From an uncultured bacterium (GTDB lineage Bacteria; UBP6; UBA1177), in NCBI GenBank assembly GCA_905235605.1, contig CAJOMF010000008.1:1-42850 (forward strand): DNA of 42,850 nucleotides, read 5' to 3'. Below are positions 6,142 to 28,740 of this stretch, piece after piece (position 1 is the first letter of the stretch; each line of letters begins with the position of its first letter). Below the pieces are notes generated by a model. It saw only the letters and a program-made list of their open reading frames with translations, was not told where the DNA came from and made no database searches. The position numbers and the translations under genes were made by a program.

Positions 6142-9100
6142 ATGAAAAAAATCACAATGATTCTGATTTTGGTGTTAAATTTTCTCTGTTTTGCAGAAAA
6201 TTACACCTATATGAGTTATGAAGAAGCAGAAGAACTTCTAAATTATTACAATAACCCTACATTTCCTACTTTTTCTCCTATTCAAAATTGGCTTTTGGAC
6301 TTCAAATGTGAATCTGGGATAACGCAATATACAATAGACGGCGATACTTCAGATTATGTTCACTACTCTCTTGCAAACTGCAATAAAAATAATAACAACA
6401 ATAGCAAGAATTATGTCTCGAATATAAAAGATCAGATAGGTGGAACCTGTTCAAAATGGGCGGCAACAGCAGCAATAGAAACAAAAATATCAACTCTGCT
6501 GGATAGTTACATCCAAGCTAACACTCAAAAATGGAGTCCTGTAAATCTATCAGAAGCATGGACGATTGTTACAACAGAAAATGATTTCGAAGATAAGGCT
6601 CTTTTAATTAAAATGTCTGAACAAGGAACAGTTCACGGTTACTATTTCCCATTTTATAGTAAACAAAACAATGATCCTCAAGGCAACCCTATAGGTTGGG
6701 AAAATTATTGGAATGAAATTAAATCTTATAATTACTATTCTCCAGAATGTAATATTGAGACATCCGGCACAAATTACACGAACAACATTTTAGAATGTAT
6801 GTTTCATGAAGCAAAAAATCGGAATGCTGTAGTTGTTTATCCGTCTAAAAACACCAATCTGGTAACAAATATACAAAGGATTCCTATAACACAGTGTGTA
6901 GATATTAACAACAATAAAGTAGTTGTTGAATGCGAACACCCTTACGGCGGCATTAGAGACAATATTCAGCCTGATTATTATCAAATGGAAGAAAAAGTTA
7001 AATGGCAATTAGGACTAAAAAATCCTGTTTTGTTAAGCTTAAATTGGAATATTCAAGATATACAGAATTCACCGATAATAAATACACGACAATCTTTAGG
7101 TTATGATTTTATTTTGACGGCTCCCAACCCCCTTTCTGATTTTAAAGATGGGATTAATCAGAACGATAACAAAGTAAACGATGGGCTCACGGATGTTACT
7201 GATTATATTGATCCAAACAACCCGGTACAATATAATTTTCAAATTACTCACTCAGTTCTTATTGTAGGTTATCTTGAAAACAGATGCTGGGATTCGAATA
7301 ATAATGGTAAATGTAATCCAGATGAAGAAGATAAGAACGGTGACGGCAGGTGTACTCCGAGAGACTGTCTTGATCAAAGATGCTGGGATTTAGATAATGA
7401 CAGTCATTGTGATCCTAATGAAGATGTCAATGGCGATAATCAATGTGATACGAGAGATTGTAAACAAACGAAATTTGATTATTTTATTATAAAAAACAGT
7501 CATGGACAAACTATTAGAGATTTTTTAGGTCATGCTGATGCTTTAAACATCATAAAAGTTCCGAGTTCCTTTAATTTTGTAACAGATGACGGCAGCACTC
7601 AAAGATTAATTCATTCTTTTAGTATGGATACTCTGAATGACGGTTCCGTTCGACAGAGAACTACACCAACGACGATGACAGTTTTTTTTAACAATTTAGA
7701 TTTTAAAAAAATTACAGGTTTTGACAATAACGGAAATGTCATTACTGAAGAGATAGCAGGAGAAGAAGAATCAGACAAAGCCATGCATGATGGTGATGGG
7801 GACGGAATTCCCGATTTTATAGACAACTGTCCCGCTCACAGCAACAGAAATCAGATAGATTCTGATGGTGACGGAGTTGGTGATATATGTGACAACTGTC
7901 CTTTTTATGGAAATTCGGATCAACGTGATTCAGATGGAGACAAAGCAGGAGACGATTGTGATAATTGCAAAAATGTTCCTAATAAAAGAGTTCTAAACAA
8001 TTCTGAAATAGTTCTTGGATCATGCGACACTTATGATTATAGTGGATTAACACCTGTTTGTATAGATGGTGGGGCAATAAGTATGGAGACAAAAAAAAGT
8101 CTCTATAAAGACGATAACGGCAACTGGTGGTGGCAGCCTGATCACAATTTGAACGGTGTCGGAGATGCTTGTGATCGTGAAAACCGTCCTGAATTTCTCG
8201 AATTGGTTGACTGGGCTAAATTTTCAGGTATTCCAAAAGGAATTCATTTTAAAGAAGAAACTCTTGTTCATGAAAACGGTCACGATGTATTTCTAATGAG
8301 AATGAATGAAGCTCTTTCCGTAAGAATCAAAATGGAATCAACAAATTCAAGGACTCACTTTGAAACTGCAACGACAAGATACTGCTGGCTTCCTGAGGAC
8401 GAAAAAGATTTATGGGGAACAGATGGATATTGTACAACTGAAGAGAAACACAAAACTGATTTTTCAGAATATTGTGATGCAAACTTCGGATACAGTCATG
8501 GAACAGATCCTATACCAATAAACACAGAAAATGTGTTAAATTGGAAATTTATCAAAAAGAAAGGGCGTCCTGAAGAAAGTGATGAATTTACAGAAATAAA
8601 AATCAAAAAATTTGAAATATCTAGAGCAATTGAAGGAATCGGAATAATCAATTGGGATTGGAGATATGATTTTATACAAGACAACGATTTTTTTGAGAAT
8701 GCTTTGACCGTTGCGCCTGAATGCCAAAATATACCGACTTCAGGTTTTTGCGAAGACAGAGATATTCCTAAATTTTACTACACCATGTCAACTGGTGTTC
8801 ACGGTGGGACAGATTTCAATTATCTCACTCAAACAAATGAGATAAATCCGAATTTTTTTAAAAACCAAAAGAAGTACACACGCTCTCAAAGACTTACTTT
8901 AAATCCGCTTACCGTAACTTATCATAAAGAACCTGTGGCTTATTTTTATCCTTCTGAATCCTGCTCAGGCACTTGTAATTTCCCTATAGAAGAGTGGCAT
9001 GACATGATAATTGAAAGGCTTATCCACGGTCCTCGTCCTTACGAAATGCCGATAACTGAGCATTATTTCAAGAATGACTACGGTTCTGATCTGATTAACA

Positions 9101-10974
9101 CAGGTGTTGCTTTCAGAGAATGGAACAACAACGCGCTTGGAATGCCTTCCGTTGTTGAAAAGAGCCGTCCGCTTCTTCTTTTGACGATAACCAAAAACGC
9201 TTCAGTAATGAATGAAGGTATTCTTGCCGTTCAAAACAATACCGTATTTTCACTTCGAAATATTCAGGAAGCTGTTTCATCCAATTTTACATTCGAAATC
9301 GTTACAATGGATGCAAATTCCAACGGTGACTGGAGAACAAAAGGCATTTTAGATGTCAGCAATGTCCCCAATTTTATGCCGACGGTTTCAACTTACCATA
9401 ACAGAGAGCTTTATGTCGTCAGCAGTAACGGCGGCAATACGCCTCATGTTTATCAGATTAAATCGACAGGTCAGACAATAACACCGCCGCAGTTAATAGA
9501 TACATGCACTCTGCGTTGGATTTTTGAACCGATAGATTTGGGTTCTCTCACAGGCCTTTCAAAAATCACGCTTCATTCAGTCGGAAACAGCCTTTTTGCT
9601 CTTGGCAAAACCACTTCGGGAATGAAAGTCTACAAACTTTCGGAACAGAACGGAAATCCTTATTTTGAAGATATTTCCGGCACGATTTTACCGGAAGGCA
9701 GAGATGTTTACAATGTTGAAATTCAGGATGATGTTCTCTATCTTGCCGGTGGAGCCGGATTCGGCGAAAACTCAGCCGATTTAAAAACAGATATCTGGAG
9801 TTTCACTGAAACAGACGGATGGCAGCTTATCCGCAATGATATCAATATGTTCCCGATAACTCTGAGAATCGATTTTGACGGAGACGATATCATCCTTACC
9901 GACAGAGTCATAAGGCTTAACGGAACTACAAACAGAGCGATATTTGCTGCTGACGGCACAGGTGATATCGTGATCGAAACAGTTCCGGTAGAAGGAGCTA
10001 ATGTTCAGGGTTTTGGTGATTACTGCCTGAAAGAAACCGGCACAGCACTTCAAGGCGGTCTTGGAACAAGCGGCGAATGTGTTCCGTTCACCCATCCGTG
10101 GTATAACTCTTTCTCGGCCGGCGCAACCGTCTACAGCCTGGATGGAAAAGGTGACAGGCTTTATGTAGGCACAAACAATGCAATAAAAGTCTACGACATT
10201 TCCGATCCGATCTCTCCTGTTTTAGTTTCATCCTTCTCGACAGGCAGCAGAGTCAACGACCTTGAAGTTTACGGCGATACTCTTTTTGCAGCGACAAACG
10301 GCGGACTCTACAAACTTGATGCTTCAAACGACACGCTTACACAAACATTGTTCGTTTCAGCTTTCCTCAACTATCAGTACAAAGTCGAAGTTTACGACGG
10401 TAAACTTTACGTCGGTGACGACTACGGCATAAAAGTCAGAGACCTTGAAACTATGAGCGTCCTCACTTCAATAAACAATGGATCTGTGCTCGATTTTGCG
10501 ATAGAAAACGGTGAAATCGGACTTTACAAAGATGCTTTGTTCTCTCCGGTGGAGATCCGTGATGCAGAAAATCTGACTTTGAAAGCGAACGAGTTCTTCG
10601 GATGCTTCGAAATAGAAGTCGGAAGCTCTGACGGCAGATTTTATCTTTCCTGCGATGACGAAACCTACAGATTTGAAGACGACGGCGACGGAGATATTTC
10701 TTTCACCGAACTTTCGGGCGATATCAGGGAGCTTCAGGATGTCTACACTTTCGACGGATACACTTACTTCTACGATGAAAACACCATCTGGATTTCAACA
10801 AACAGCGATGTTCCTGCACTCTGCGGAAACGGCATAGTCGAAGGTGACGAAATCTGCGACGGAGCACCGATAGACTGCACGGAGTTGGATCCAAATTATG
10901 TCAGCGGAACGGCGACATGCAATTCGACCTGTGACGGTTACAACACCAATAACTGCTCAGATGACGGGTGGTAA
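6142..10974 (+). CDS. Secreted papain-like (C1) protein with Ca-binding insert, TSP type-3 repeats, propeller and DUF4215-like tail (P2)
   Basis: The start follows AAGGAG and encodes a signal peptide (MKKITMILILVLNFLCFAEN). Residues about 90-460 resemble papain-type C1 peptidases: DQIGGTCSKWA gives Gln98 and candidate nucleophile Cys103, THSVLIVGY gives His370, and FIIKNSHG gives Asn452. Trp follows Cys103 by three residues, not directly as in papain, so activity is not certain. Between His370 and Asn452 lies an unusual Cys/Asp-rich insert (about 381-441) with two DxNxDGxC-like loops. Residues about 549-617 are thrombospondin type-3 repeats (DSDGDGVGD and DNCP units) that bind calcium in other proteins. 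The region from about 1040 to 1550 is propeller-like, including IKVYDISDPISP, and the end (from about 1559) is a DUF4215-like Cys module beginning CGNGIVEGDEICDG. It is likely exported and held at the cell surface. It shares its C-terminal half with P1 and sits in an operon with L2. Confidence 0.85.
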   Translation: MKKITMILILVLNFLCFAENYTYMSYEEAEELLNYYNNPTFPTFSPIQNWLLDFKCESGITQYTIDGDTSDYVHYSLANCNKNNNNNSKNYVSNIKDQIGGTCSKWAATAAIETKISTLLDSYIQANTQKWSPVNLSEAWTIVTTENDFEDKALLIKMSEQGTVHGYYFPFYSKQNNDPQGNPIGWENYWNEIKSYNYYSPECNIETSGTNYTNNILECMFHEAKNRNAVVVYPSKNTNLVTNIQRIPITQCVDINNNKVVVECEHPYGGIRDNIQPDYYQMEEKVKWQLGLKNPVLLSLNWNIQDIQNSPIINTRQSLGYDFILTAPNPLSDFKDGINQNDNKVNDGLTDVTDYIDPNNPVQYNFQITHSVLIVGYLENRCWDSNNNGKCNPDEEDKNGDGRCTPRDCLDQRCWDLDNDSHCDPNEDVNGDNQCDTRDCKQTKFDYFIIKNSHGQTIRDFLGHADALNIIKVPSSFNFVTDDGSTQRLIHSFSMDTLNDGSVRQRTTPTTMTVFFNNLDFKKITGFDNNGNVITEEIAGEEESDKAMHDGDGDGIPDFIDNCPAHSNRNQIDSDGDGVGDICDNCPFYGNSDQRDSDGDKAGDDCDNCKNVPNKRVLNNSEIVLGSCDTYDYSGLTPVCIDGGAISMETKKSLYKDDNGNWWWQPDHNLNGVGDACDRENRPEFLELVDWAKFSGIPKGIHFKEETLVHENGHDVFLMRMNEALSVRIKMESTNSRTHFETATTRYCWLPEDEKDLWGTDGYCTTEEKHKTDFSEYCDANFGYSHGTDPIPINTENVLNWKFIKKKGRPEESDEFTEIKIKKFEISRAIEGIGIINWDWRYDFIQDNDFFENALTVAPECQNIPTSGFCEDRDIPKFYYTMSTGVHGGTDFNYLTQTNEINPNFFKNQKKYTRSQRLTLNPLTVTYHKEPVAYFYPSESCSGTCNFPIEEWHDMIIERLIHGPRPYEMPITEHYFKNDYGSDLINTGVAFREWNNNALGMPSVVEKSRPLLLLTITKNASVMNEGILAVQNNTVFSLRNIQEAVSSNFTFEIVTMDANSNGDWRTKGILDVSNVPNFMPTVSTYHNRELYVVSSNGGNTPHVYQIKSTGQTITPPQLIDTCTLRWIFEPIDLGSLTGLSKITLHSVGNSLFALGKTTSGMKVYKLSEQNGNPYFEDISGTILPEGRDVYNVEIQDDVLYLAGGAGFGENSADLKTDIWSFTETDGWQLIRNDINMFPITLRIDFDGDDIILTDRVIRLNGTTNRAIFAADGTGDIVIETVPVEGANVQGFGDYCLKETGTALQGGLGTSGECVPFTHPWYNSFSAGATVYSLDGKGDRLYVGTNNAIKVYDISDPISPVLVSSFSTGSRVNDLEVYGDTLFAATNGGLYKLDASNDTLTQTLFVSAFLNYQYKVEVYDGKLYVGDDYGIKVRDLETMSVLTSINNGSVLDFAIENGEIGLYKDALFSPVEIRDAENLTLKANEFFGCFEIEVGSSDGRFYLSCDDETYRFEDDGDGDISFTELSGDIRELQDVYTFDGYTYFYDENTIWISTNSDVPALCGNGIVEGDEICDGAPIDCTELDPNYVSGTATCNSTCDGYNTNNCSDDGW

Positions 10975-17464: not shown

Positions 17465-18829
17465 ATGAAGTTTTCAGCTTTGATTTCAGTTTTGTTTCTT
17501 TGTTTCGTTTTCGCGGCGTGTGCTTCGGAAGAAGATGACTCATGCGTCACTGTTCTTGACTGTCCTGACGGTTATTCCTGTGTAAATTCGGTCTGCACCC
17601 CACCGAGCGCAGAGGCGGATACAACTCAGGAAGGAGATACTGATTCTCAGGATGTTACTGACACATCCGATTCAGACAGTTCAGAATTGCCGGGCAACGA
17701 TGATTCTGACGGTGAAATTCCCGTAGCAAACGACACAGATTCAGAGATCCCTGATGATATTACCGGCTGTCCTAATGCATGCAGCGGTTTTGGAGAGTGT
17801 GACTTCGAAAAAGGAAAATGCACATGCGATGAGACCCATGGCGGTGAAGACTGCTCGGAATGTGCCGAAGGTTATCATTTGGAAGCGGAAGGCGACGATG
17901 AAGACGGAAATCCCGATGTCCGCTCATGCGTAGTCAACCTGACATGCGATCCGAATCCGTGCAATAACAACGGATGCAGGGTAGAGGGAAATACGGCTGT
18001 CTGCACATGTTCCGATTCAAAACATCAGGGCGGAAGATGGTGCGAAAGATGTGCTGACGGTTATATGCTGAATAATTCTGGAGTTTGCAAGGAAGACTGC
18101 TCTTTGAAAACCTGCACTCCTCCGCAAAAATGCGGAATCGACTTTGCGACCAACGAAGCCAGCTGTAATGAATGTGAAAACGAATATTATACAGGAACGG
18201 ACTGCAAAAGCTGTGATCCGGTTCATTTCTGCAACGGTCACGCAACGGCGTGTGTTGTTGAAGGCGGTACAGAAAAATGCACCTGCGAAGCCGCTTATCA
18301 AGGAGAAAAATGCAATACCTGCGCTTCGGGATATTTCATGAGCAACGGCGTCTGCATAAAAAGTTGTGATGTAAACAAGTGTTTCCAATCGCATCAATGC
18401 TCCGGAACTTCAGCGTTGGGAATAGAAATGACAAGTACTGTCAGCGGACACGGAACATGCAGCAATACGACAGGCGAATGTCTGTGTGATTCTGGTTGGA
18501 AGACAGGGACCTCAAGTCTTGGAACAGGAACTACTGTTCAATGTGGTGCTTTAATAACAGTTTTTGAAACTCTCAATAATGTTGAATGTACGATCTGTGA
18601 TAAAAACAATCCGCCGTCGCAATATGCATCGTCAGGATGTCCGCAGAGTCAGACTGAAGATACGAGTTTGTGTTCGTCTGTTCTGTCAACTTTCTGCGGT
18701 CCCTACGGATCATGCTATTACGAGCCGACAGGAGCACATCAGCTTTACTGCGTATGCAACGACGGTTATCATCTTGGCAACGGTGACAAATACAGCGGTT
18801 ACTGCGAAGCTGATTCAACAGGCGAATAA
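17465..18829 (+). CDS. Cys-rich lipoprotein with EGF/laminin-like repeats
   Basis: The start follows AAGGAG. The signal ends in FAAC (Cys19), after which comes a short DxxDCPDGYSCVNSVC module, then an acidic Asp/Ser spacer (about residues 55-98, units such as DTSDSDSSE) like that of L1 and L2. From about residue 99 to the end there are many six-Cys EGF/laminin-like units (CSGFGECDFEKGKCTC, CEAAYQGEKCNTCASGY, CYYEPTGAHQLYCVC). Such domains need disulfide bonds and usually mediate protein-protein contacts outside the cell. The gene is divergent from the PPC lipoprotein and followed by lexA, which has its own promoter. Probably a surface adhesion or display protein; no enzyme motif is present. 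Confidence 0.85.
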   Translation: MKFSALISVLFLCFVFAACASEEDDSCVTVLDCPDGYSCVNSVCTPPSAEADTTQEGDTDSQDVTDTSDSDSSELPGNDDSDGEIPVANDTDSEIPDDITGCPNACSGFGECDFEKGKCTCDETHGGEDCSECAEGYHLEAEGDDEDGNPDVRSCVVNLTCDPNPCNNNGCRVEGNTAVCTCSDSKHQGGRWCERCADGYMLNNSGVCKEDCSLKTCTPPQKCGIDFATNEASCNECENEYYTGTDCKSCDPVHFCNGHATACVVEGGTEKCTCEAAYQGEKCNTCASGYFMSNGVCIKSCDVNKCFQSHQCSGTSALGIEMTSTVSGHGTCSNTTGECLCDSGWKTGTSSLGTGTTVQCGALITVFETLNNVECTICDKNNPPSQYASSGCPQSQTEDTSLCSSVLSTFCGPYGSCYYEPTGAHQLYCVCNDGYHLGNGDKYSGYCEADSTGE

Positions 18830-22744: not shown

Positions 22745-23875
22745 ATGAAAAAACTGCTTTTTGTCCTTACTGTTGCATTGGTTTTTTCTTCATGCGGCGG
22801 AGATTCCAAGTCAAGTGAAGGCGATATGAATACGGTCGGCTTTTTCGAAAGGTATCTCGATACGCTCTGTAATGCTTCGGTCAAGTGCACCTCAGGTTTT
22901 GTCAATGCTGAAAATCTCTCTTTCTGTCCGAAAACGATACTTAATTCCTCAACTTCTTTTGAAGGTTTTCACAAAGGCGAATCGGTAATTTTTAAACAGA
23001 AATATGATATGCTGAAAAATGCTGAGGAGATGGGATGGCTTTCACTTGATATGGAGCAGGCTGAAAGCTGTTTTTCAATTATCGCTCAAATGGAACCGTG
23101 CAATCCGTTTGATGTCCAGCTTCTCGACATTCCTGAATGCGCCAAAGTATTCAAAGGGTCGAAGACTTTGAAACAGGAGTGCAATCAGGATGAAGAGTGC
23201 AAAAACGGCTGGTGCAATATGCGCGGAAACATTTGTCCCGGTTCGTGTGTCGATTACAAACAGCCCGATCAGAGTTGCAATTCATCGCTTGACAGGTGTG
23301 TAGCCGGGTATGAATGCCGTTCTTCCGGATGCTCAAAATCAAGTACCGGCGTCGTCAACGATCCTTGTGTCAGCAACAGCGACTGTACGACTTTCCTTTT
23401 CTGCTACGTCAAAGAGGGCGATTCTTTCGGTGTCTGTCTCAAAAGAAAGGGTGAGGGTTTGGCATGCACCACTGCAAATGAGTGCGTAGTCGGTTTGAGC
23501 TGCGTCGACAACCTCTGCACGCGTTCGAGAATAAGCGATAATGTCGGTTCGCCGTGCGGATTGCAGCCGGAAAAGGATGAAGACGGCAACGATATAATTT
23601 TGGAGTGCAACAGATTCTCAAAACTTGAGTGCGGTGCTGCAAATGTATGCCAGAAAATGTCGGCGGATTCGAATCTTCAGTGTTCCCAATACTGTGATTC
23701 GGACAGAGGTCTTTACTGCGATTCATCGTCTCACACATGCCAATGGCCGAAAACAGCCGGTCTTCCGTGCACTGATAATGAACAGTGCGCTTCGCTTTAC
23801 TGTGCGCTGGTTTCCGGAGCAGATGAAGTCAGGGTTTGTCAGGAACCTCAGTGTCTGGTAATCAATGAAAATTAA
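22745..23875 (+). CDS. Cys-rich lipoprotein with Dickkopf-like modules
   Basis: CAGGAGG precedes the ATG. The signal ends in FSSC (Cys17). An N-terminal helical part with four or more Cys (LDTLCNASVKCTSG) is followed by repeated short Cys modules of the form CNQDEECKNGWCNMRGNIC, CVSNSDCTTFLFC and CTDNEQCASLYC, which match the spacing of Dickkopf N-terminal-like repeats common in secreted proteins of Myxococcota. It is the third gene of the lapA-lapB operon and overlaps the next gene by 11 bases. The role is unknown; the disulfide-dense fold and the thioredoxin-like neighbour suggest that redox handling matters for it. Confidence 0.8.
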   Translation: MKKLLFVLTVALVFSSCGGDSKSSEGDMNTVGFFERYLDTLCNASVKCTSGFVNAENLSFCPKTILNSSTSFEGFHKGESVIFKQKYDMLKNAEEMGWLSLDMEQAESCFSIIAQMEPCNPFDVQLLDIPECAKVFKGSKTLKQECNQDEECKNGWCNMRGNICPGSCVDYKQPDQSCNSSLDRCVAGYECRSSGCSKSSTGVVNDPCVSNSDCTTFLFCYVKEGDSFGVCLKRKGEGLACTTANECVVGLSCVDNLCTRSRISDNVGSPCGLQPEKDEDGNDIILECNRFSKLECGAANVCQKMSADSNLQCSQYCDSDRGLYCDSSSHTCQWPKTAGLPCTDNEQCASLYCALVSGADEVRVCQEPQCLVINEN

Positions 23876-26482: not shown

Positions 26483-27082
26483 ATGGAAAGTAAAAAAACT
26501 TTGGCGCTTTTCGATTTTGATAAAACTGTTACCGACAGGGATTCCTTTTTACCGTTTCTTGTTTTTTCTTTCGGCTGGTTCAAAACAATACTGCTTCTTT
26601 CCTTTCTTTTTCCGCAGGCTTTGATCTGCATTGCCGGTTTTATGTCGCGTAAAAAGTTCAAGGAGATGATTTTCAGACGCACGATAAAAGGGTGGACAAA
26701 AGATAAATTCCGTGATGTCGCTCTCGATTTTTACCGGAAAAAAATGAGAAACTGGGTGAGAAAAACGGCTGCCGGCGAGATAAAAAAACATCTTGAAAAC
26801 GGAGCTGATGTTTCGCTTGTTTCGGCTTCTCCTGAGGACTGGCTGTGGCCTTTCACCGAGGAATACGGAATCAACCTGATCGGGACCCGCCTTGAGATAA
26901 AGGACGGCGTCTACACCGGAAACATCGCCGGTGCCAACTGCCGCAAAGCGGAGAAGGTTAGGAGAGTTAAAGAAGTCTACAACATTGAAGAGTATTCTGA
27001 TATTTATGCCTACGGCGATTCAACAGGCGATAAAGAGATGCTGGAGATGTCAAATCATCCCAAATTCAGAACTTTCGATTAG
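26483..27082 (+). CDS. HAD-superfamily subfamily IB phosphatase
   Basis: ATG at 26483 follows GAGG and places the catalytic motif near the N-terminus as expected. Motif I is DFDKTVTDRDSF (nucleophile Asp and acid/base Asp), a membrane-like helical cap region follows (FKTILLLSFLFPQALICIAG), motif II is LVSASPEDW and motif IV is YGDSTGDKEML. This layout is shared with PSP-like HAD-IB phosphatases (SerB-related, including proteins acting on phospholipid head groups). The substrate cannot be named. The stop codon overlaps that of the convergent HD-GYP-like gene. Confidence 0.85.
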   Translation: MESKKTLALFDFDKTVTDRDSFLPFLVFSFGWFKTILLLSFLFPQALICIAGFMSRKKFKEMIFRRTIKGWTKDKFRDVALDFYRKKMRNWVRKTAAGEIKKHLENGADVSLVSASPEDWLWPFTEEYGINLIGTRLEIKDGVYTGNIAGANCRKAEKVRRVKEVYNIEEYSDIYAYGDSTGDKEMLEMSNHPKFRTFD

Positions 27083-28740
27083 ATTTTTTTCCTGATTTCG
27101 TCTGCAATTTTTCTTGTCATATCGACAGGGTGGTAATTTGCGAAAATTCCCGAAACTTTGAGCGCATTCGCTGCGATAGTCGTGTTTTTGTCGACCGAAT
27201 ACTGCGAAAAGAAATAGAAAGGAATTTCCGAAATCTCTTTTTTGTGCTTGATTGCGGCTAACAGGCGGAGCGGAGTGATCGCTGTGTCTGTCATGTCGAT
27301 GTCGCAGAGGATGAAGCCGAGGTGATCTTTTTCTTCCTTGATTATCTGGGCAGCTTTTTCTATGGTTTTAGCTTTGGTAACTTCTATATTTACACGGCTG
27401 AATTTGTCTGCTATGTCATCCAGATCGAATTTTTTCTGAGAAATGACGATAGCGTTGATTTTTTTCAGTGAAGAATCGGTTGACGATATCTGCTGCGTCT
27501 GTTCAAGCGCATTTATCAGCCTGTCGCTGAAGAACATCGTCTCTTTAAGCTGCTGCAGCGCGTCTTTCGGCGAAATCCCGGAAATTCTCGTCATAAAATC
27601 GTAAGTGTTTGCAAGAAGGATAATGAGCGAACCGACAGGGATCTCGTTCAGTTTGAGACCTTTGGGAAAACCCTGACCATTGTATGTTTCATACATGTTT
27701 TCAAGGCAGTTGAGTGCAAGCTTCGAAAGCTGTACATCGGCGAAAAGTTTTGTCGCTATCTGCGAATAAGTTTTCATCTTTTCGGTATTTGTCTGGCTTT
27801 TGATATCGAGAGCAGTGAGGTGAAGTTTTTTGCCGACATCGTGAAGGTATGCTGCGATCGTGAGGTCGTAGAGCTCTACTTCGGAAAGGTGTATCGCTTC
27901 ACCGATCTCTTTGCAGATGATCGCGACTCTCTGCGAGTGGGCGAAAAACGCGTCTCCGTGAGCTGCGACATCGAGAAGATTCGAGAATATGCGGAGAAGT
28001 TCGATGAGCTGGTTTCCCTGTTCACGGACCCAGCTTGGCATGCTGCTCATCATCGAAGTGGTTACAGCCGTAACATCGAATTTTTTGTCGGAAAGTTCCG
28101 CCTGATTTACGATCATCGAGAATGTTTCGCGCTTTTCCTGACGAAGTTTGTCTTCGTCCATCGTTGCGATATCCTGGATCCTGTTTGCCATTTCGATGTC
28201 GTTGGGATTGTCAAGCGAGATGATCGTTTCATTGGCAAACATATTCTGGTTTACCGAAACGGAATTCCTGACAAGCCTGTCGAAAGCAGTGATATCGTTT
28301 TTATACTGCTTCATAATGAGTGCTTTTATGACGTTTGAAGTCGCAACGACCGGAACGACAGACTGAACGCCGTTGAGGAGTATCTTCAGCTCGTCAAAAA
28401 GGACTATGTTCTGCGGTTCGTAGGTGAGAAGGGTTAGGCGGTAGTTGTTTATGCTGTACTTCAACGGGAAAATGGTTTTGTCAAGAGCCATTTTCAGAGG
28501 AATAATGTCGGAAGGATTCATTACCGCCATTTTTTCAAGTTTTTCACTCGTTATATACTGAACATTGAACTGCTTCGAGAGGTATTGCAAGAGCTCTGTT
28601 TCAGGTATCTTCCCGAGTTTGAGAAGGATTTCACCGAGATATGTAGGATGATTTTTCTGAAAAGAAAGGGCTAAAGAAATATCTGATTCTAAAATGAGAC
28701 CTTTTTCTAAAAAGTATTCTCCGACTTTTACGCCAGTCAT
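27079..28740 (-). CDS. MshEN - degenerate HD-GYP - receiver-like fusion protein
   Basis: Residues about 1-145 form a T2SSE_N/MshEN domain (GEYFLEKGLILESDISLAL, LGEILLKLGKIPETELLQYL), the part of GspE/PilB ATPases that binds cyclic-di-GMP in MshE. Residues about 240-390 are HD-GYP-like: H268 (HSQRVA), His300-Asp301 (AAYLHDVGKK) and a changed GYP loop NGQGFPKGL (354-362). The middle metal-ligand His is replaced (Tyr325 region) and the HHE motif is absent (LENMYETY), so phosphodiesterase activity is doubtful. Residues about 425-553 look like a degenerate receiver (FILCDIDMTDTAITPLRLLAAIKH). No ATPase domain is present. I infer a c-di-GMP-responsive signalling protein, perhaps acting on type IV pili or gliding machinery. 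It has its own promoter downstream of nagZ. Confidence 0.8.
   Translation of the reverse strand: MTGVKVGEYFLEKGLILESDISLALSFQKNHPTYLGEILLKLGKIPETELLQYLSKQFNVQYITSEKLEKMAVMNPSDIIPLKMALDKTIFPLKYSINNYRLTLLTYEPQNIVLFDELKILLNGVQSVVPVVATSNVIKALIMKQYKNDITAFDRLVRNSVSVNQNMFANETIISLDNPNDIEMANRIQDIATMDEDKLRQEKRETFSMIVNQAELSDKKFDVTAVTTSMMSSMPSWVREQGNQLIELLRIFSNLLDVAAHGDAFFAHSQRVAIICKEIGEAIHLSEVELYDLTIAAYLHDVGKKLHLTALDIKSQTNTEKMKTYSQIATKLFADVQLSKLALNCLENMYETYNGQGFPKGLKLNEIPVGSLIILLANTYDFMTRISGISPKDALQQLKETMFFSDRLINALEQTQQISSTDSSLKKINAIVISQKKFDLDDIADKFSRVNIEVTKAKTIEKAAQIIKEEKDHLGFILCDIDMTDTAITPLRLLAAIKHKKEISEIPFYFFSQYSVDKNTTIAANALKVSGIFANYHPVDMTRKIADEIRKKI

Follow-up and report, generated by a model that had tools for sequence, protein, structure and literature searches.

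The MshEN signature consists of two RLG...LxxxLxxQ motifs separated by a 5-residue spacer, and fusions of MshEN to HD-GYP and to REC domains were already listed in 2016 (Wang et al., PMC5013675). In the GSPII-A domain of PilF, deviations at the Arg and Gln positions of the motifs are among the factors that prevent c-di-GMP binding. The HD-GYP protein PmGH lost its activity when H250, H276 or H277 was changed to alanine, and the E185A and D305A variants retained some activity (PMC4159591). Structures of degenerate HD-GYP receptors are only beginning to appear (DvhD, 2026). DvhD, from Desulfovibrio vulgaris, is a membrane-bound receptor that has dCache and PAS domains; its HH pair is replaced by Met-Asn and its HD dyad by SQ, and it binds c-di-GMP at ~99 nM in a metal-free state, with no hydrolysis (PMC13090378). 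V-cGAP3 (5z7c) has tandem HD and HD-GYP domains, the degenerate HD half sharing its chain with a full catalytic HD-GYP half.

The UBP6 protein described here shares the fold, the HD dyad, the Lys after the HD and the GxP motif with the canonical HD-GYP phosphodiesterases PmGH, RpfG and PmxA but lacks most of their eight metal ligands. Its best PDB match by sequence is V-cGAP3, whose degenerate HD half carries a similar E.xNGQGxP segment; unlike V-cGAP3, it has no catalytic half. As in DvhD, the HD-GYP fold is without its HH ligands (Met-Tyr rather than Met-Asn) and there is Asn at the D305 position, but the c-di-GMP contacts of DvhD are mostly absent. The MshEN (GSPII) domains of MshE, PilB and PilF have the same two 24-residue motifs, 5-residue spacer, glycines and both glutamines; here, in contrast, there is no ATPase attached, Tyr replaces the motif II Arg and relatives do not conserve the second Gln. 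The literature searched yielded no account of this family or its conserved pocket.

Domain build of the protein

The gene lies on the minus strand of the window (the whole 42,850-nt stretch of DNA that was analysed). The first-pass annotation had given its limits exactly, with no strand, and had seen an MshEN domain joined to HD-GYP and a receiver-like tail with no ATPase. This build was borne out by Pfam and NCBIfam matches and by superposition of an AlphaFold2 model, giving, from the N to the C terminus, MshEN, a disordered linker, an HD-GYP fold and a receiver fold:

27079..28740, minus strand: whole gene, 553 aa, ATG start, stop codon at 27079-27081
28291..28731, minus strand: MshEN domain, residues 4-150 (Pfam PF05157, NCBIfam NF053729, phmmer to PilF/PilB structures)
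28012..28290, minus strand: linker, residues 151-243, of low model confidence (pLDDT mostly <50 from residue 159) and the least conserved part of the protein
27496..28011, minus strand: degenerate HD-GYP domain, residues 244-415 (HD_5, E 1e-15; VIA-align Z 19.3 to DvhD and 19.0 to V-cGAP3)
27082..27459, minus strand: pseudo-receiver domain, residues 428-553 (VIA-align Z 18.8 to a receiver domain)
27301..27303, minus strand: D480, at the phospho-acceptor Asp position, invariant in the order and Glu in most Myxococcota homologues

The MshEN match scored 25.1 bits (Pfam cut-off 23.1), the MshE-related c-di-GMP motif at residues 6-57 scored 41.2 bits (NCBIfam cut-off 38) and the HD_5 match, which placed the HD domain at residues 259-399, scored 58.2 bits (Pfam cut-off 27.2). 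A T2SSE ATPase domain was absent from the protein in the domain search. The AlphaFold2 model, built from 22 orthologues (mean pLDDT 77.9), was confident for the N-terminal, HD and C-terminal domains and of low confidence for the linker (~159-242). With VIA-align 2, the middle of the model superposed on the HD-GYP domain of DvhD with an rmsd of 3.7 over 177 residues and on the HD domain of V-cGAP3 with an rmsd of 2.5 over 167 residues. The receiver tail fell below Pfam thresholds and its fold is apparent from the predicted model, which superposed on true receivers with an rmsd of 1.9 over 125 residues. Within this tail D480 and S512 are kept, the acidic pair is S434-Q435 and the conserved Lys is absent. 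A model of the HD domain alone, from a single sequence, was set aside (pLDDT 47).

The HD-GYP active site

The active site was compared by alignment with canonical HD-GYP domains, using the ligand numbering of PmGH (PMC4159591):

27937..27939, minus strand: H268 (PmGH H189), invariant in the alignments of the order and Myxococcota
27820..27843, minus strand: H300-D301-x-x-K304-x-x-H307, of which H307 is invariant in the family and has no counterpart in the canonical HD-GYPs compared
27766..27768, minus strand: Y325 at the position of metal ligand H250
27688..27696, minus strand: M349-Y350-E351 replacing H276-H277-E
27607..27609, minus strand: N378 at the position of metal ligand D305

From the ligand set H189, H221, D222, H250, H276, H277 and D305, only the equivalents of H189, H221 and D222 (H268, H300 and D301) are retained. 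Changed positions are E185 (A264), H250 (Y325), H276 (M349), H277 (Y350) and D305 (N378); the residues at K225 and D308 are unchanged (K304 and D381). It had been noted from the sequence that H268 and H300-D301 are kept and that the HHE and middle His ligands are lost; this residue reading was correct, and the alignment, which restored none of the histidine ligands at H250, H276 and H277, adds the changed D305. Phosphodiesterase activity is very unlikely because H250, H276 and H277, whose alanine variants are dead in PmGH, have all been changed. On the alignment, then, the HD-GYP domain is with high probability not a c-di-GMP phosphodiesterase.

The gene was found in all 24 other sampled genomes of the order (UBP6) at 35-94% identity, one copy being a contig-edge fragment and one lacking its start. 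In every order member covering the HD domain, the H250, H276 and H277 positions hold Tyr, Met/Val and Tyr, respectively. The D305 position is Asn only within the genus (11 of 15 genomes); elsewhere in the order it is mostly Asp, with His in one member. Pairwise dN/dS within the genus was 0.046-0.067 overall, with values of ~0.05 across all domains that were often lowest in the receiver. Together with the presence of the gene throughout the order, these values argue that the degenerate gene is not a product of chance.

A family common to UBP6 and Myxococcota

Among 60 relatives searched, full-length proteins were confined to the same order; all other matches were weaker and domain-sized. Scanning GTDB species genomes with an alignment extended the set of relatives to a UBP6_UBA1177 protein (91% identity) and to many genomes from rumen and gut metagenomes; whole-length matches from outside the order belonged to bins of Myxococcota and Deltaproteobacteria. 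Among 58 sampled Myxococcota genomes, long matches to the whole architecture were present in several families. The Myxococcota homologues have the domain order MshEN, HD_5, Response_reg, DUF4388, sharing all but the last with the UBP6 proteins, which end after the receiver. Whole-length profiles of the two groups aligned collinearly end to end over 513 columns (E 2e-52), and their HD domains came together in one clade (support 100/99) in a tree that included 33 further HD domains. On these comparisons the gene belongs to a conserved family common to the UBP6 phylum and Myxococcota. One clear member of the Myxococcota type with a DUF4388-like tail (L078) comes from a record titled Micrococcales, and this bin label is probably wrong or mixed.

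Conservation was counted over 26 aligned members from both phyla, the Myxococcota part being best matches. H268, L299, H300, D301, G303, H307, E351, G355, G357, P359 and A394 were invariant (26/26), and Y350 and K304 were each present in 25/26. The two groups thus have in common the H, HD, H307, E351 and GxGxP residues and the loss of the HH pair, which was absent from all 26. Loss of H250 is not universal, since some Myxococcota homologues have His at this position. At the D305 position, several Myxococcota have Asp and some members of the two-phylum set have Glu or His. Further differences from UBP6 are that the MshEN c-di-GMP motif is lost in many Myxococcota homologues and that the receiver acceptor position is mostly Glu. 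With the gene in all 24 order genomes, dN/dS of ~0.05 and the same architecture in Myxococcota, the loss of the HD-GYP ligands is, by the sequence evidence, ancestral rather than recent decay. Catalytic loss would then be an old, selected trait of a two-phylum family and not a one-off oddity.

Myxococcus xanthus MXAN_2807 is an HD-GYP protein with an MshEN domain (PMC8844925), and its length of 661 aa is near that of the homologues of 663-687 aa in 9-Mb Myxococcota genomes. By domain content and length it is probably a family member. A deletion of MXAN_2807 has been made; single mutations other than dmxA, sgmT and tmoK were without effect on growth or motility, and MXAN_2807 is not among the developmental mutants, which are sgmT, tmoK, dmxB and pmxA (PMC4877007). 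The conserved pocket residues of the lineage differ from those of DvhD, which raises the question of what else the HD-GYP fold reads, and since M. xanthus is genetically tractable and has this probable homologue, the question is accessible at the bench.

Sensing, genomic setting and function

The two MshEN motifs were compared with those of VcMshE (PMC5013675):

28657..28728, minus strand: MshEN motif I, residues 5-28 (KVGEYF...L..Q)
28570..28641, minus strand: MshEN motif II, residues 34-57 (YLGEIL...L...L..Q), after a spacer of exactly 5 residues, with Tyr at the R38 position

This protein retains the glycines, both glutamines and the hydrophobic clusters of the motifs, with Lys replacing the first Arg and Tyr the second. 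The motif I half-site is complete apart from this Arg to Lys change, with K5, V6, G7, G14, I21, L25 and Q28 at R9, L10, G11, G18, L25, L29 and Q32 of VcMshE, and Q28 is invariant in the order. The second Gln (Q57, at the Q61 position) is Gln in 13 of the 15 genus genomes; the remaining two, like the rest of their family, have Arg, and further families of the order have either Arg or Ile. In the Myxococcota group that retains motif I it is usually Glu, with His and Gln once each; in another Myxococcota group the MshEN motif is lost. From the motifs, there is about an even chance that the MshEN domain binds c-di-GMP in the genus, and binding may be weaker or different in relatives outside it. 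As many Myxococcota homologues are without the motif, c-di-GMP sensing is not family-wide.

Taken as a whole, we consider the protein to be probably (roughly 60%) a cytoplasmic, non-enzymatic signalling adaptor. The MshEN domain would be the input and in the genus may bind c-di-GMP. The non-cutting HD-GYP fold would serve as a conserved body for dimerization and partner binding, its remodelled pocket (H268, H300, D301, K304, H307, Y350 and E351) perhaps holding a metal or another ligand. The pseudo-receiver would act as a docking module without a phosphate switch, and output would be through protein contact. This adaptor reading is favoured by the ligand loss with its PmGH precedent, the loss of HH in all 26 members beside invariant pocket residues, the well-supported HD clade, the collinear profiles and the low dN/dS. 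It is also favoured by the largely kept MshEN motif, the receiver without acidic pair and Lys, and the precedent of DvhD as a receptor. Against it, the motif II Tyr replaces the guanine-stacking Arg, the Gln of this motif is not kept outside the genus, and the conserved H, HD and K leave room for a mononuclear metal site. A more specific proposal, which we put forward tentatively and regard as possible but on balance doubtful, is of an undescribed pseudo-enzyme family (UBP6 and Myxococcota). Here a single remodelling of the HD-GYP centre would have produced a new conserved site for a ligand or a single metal, formed by the same seven pocket residues, that relays a signal between the MshEN sensor and a phosphorylation-independent receiver.

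The earlier suggestion that the protein senses c-di-GMP at two sites instead of degrading it stood in part: with the ligands changed, sensing is likelier than degradation, but the MshEN motif deviates and the DvhD contacts have mostly gone. Two sites are therefore possible and not favoured. For the HD pocket as well as MshEN to bind would fit with DvhD, a known degenerate HD-GYP receptor for c-di-GMP, being the top VIA-align match, with the Met-Tyr found where DvhD has Met-Asn and with the Asn that both have at the D305 position. However, when the seven DvhD contacts were mapped through a phmmer alignment, about one was retained, M646 (M383) being the only clear case; the others were Y523 (A264), L577 (N318), K582 (K321, not conserved), Y621 (F358, variable), R650 (S387) and Y652 (I389 or a gap). 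The offset between paper and chain numbering was consistent at Y652/R653, R650, M646, Y621, P567, R569, L577, K582 and the SQ that replaces HD. The bridging-site residues P567 and R569 differ too, and the RPYR segment that supplies R650 and Y652 is missing in UBP6. We thus judge c-di-GMP binding by the HD pocket to be improbable on the alignment, and the two-site sensor likewise. A similarly low probability is given to a mononuclear HD phosphohydrolase acting on another substrate, with a minimal H...HD...D set and H307 as an extra ligand or acid. Single-metal hydrolases are known in the HD superfamily, among the 26 members from the two phyla H268, H300, D301 and H307 do not vary and K304 hardly varies, and the D305 position is Asp in most UBP6 members outside the genus and in several Myxococcota. 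The last ligand is nevertheless Asn in most of the genus and Glu or His in some other members, and there is no substrate or operon hint of an enzyme. A functionless, decaying former phosphodiesterase would explain the lost catalytic ligands but is ruled out for practical purposes by the dN/dS and by the conservation of the same losses and invariant pocket residues in two phyla.

Competition with PilB-type ATPases for partners had also been proposed, and the genome does have PilB-like genes, three MshEN-containing T2SSE ATPases and two PilT-like genes, so that a setting for such competition exists. MshEN is the N domain of type IV pilus and type II secretion ATPases, which would suit a regulator or competitor acting on them through this domain. 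MshEN also pairs, however, with many non-pilus partners (PMC5013675), and no pilus gene adjoined the family in any of the UBP6 or Myxococcota loci examined. The gene adjoins nagZ and a HAD phosphatase, a layout shared within the genus only; neighbours in the genus (nagZ, coaX, era, asparaginase and the HAD phosphatase) are not pilus-related, and those in other UBP6 families and Myxococcota are unrelated. We regard this role as highly unlikely.

The same genome has three GGDEF genes and further HD_5 proteins, including one in which two HD domains lie in tandem. This 424-aa protein (G000:C2:69864-70985; L002, L039) is reminiscent of V-cGAP3 and has the HH pair in both domains, the second with the full HHE/GYP set. 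Downstream of the Myxococcota homologue, a large Ser/Thr kinase gene with AAA and TPR parts was seen at L067:7965-10991 and L080:8062-11160, and genes of similar size were present in L069 and L089; the kinase was not adopted as a partner, two Myxococcota loci being too few. A C25 peptidase gene of gingipain type is convergent to the gene in two UBP6 families (L064:7666-10035 and L065:7595-10033), at the position held by the HAD phosphatase in the genus. Elsewhere in the window, positions 6142-10974 (plus strand) encode an apparently secreted protein of 1610 aa that by eye resembles a cysteine peptidase domain with calcium-binding type 3 repeats and propeller-like repeats after it. Two Cys-rich, lipoprotein-like proteins with EGF-like stretches, in a Myxococcota-like style, are encoded at 17465-18829 and 22745-23875 (plus strand).
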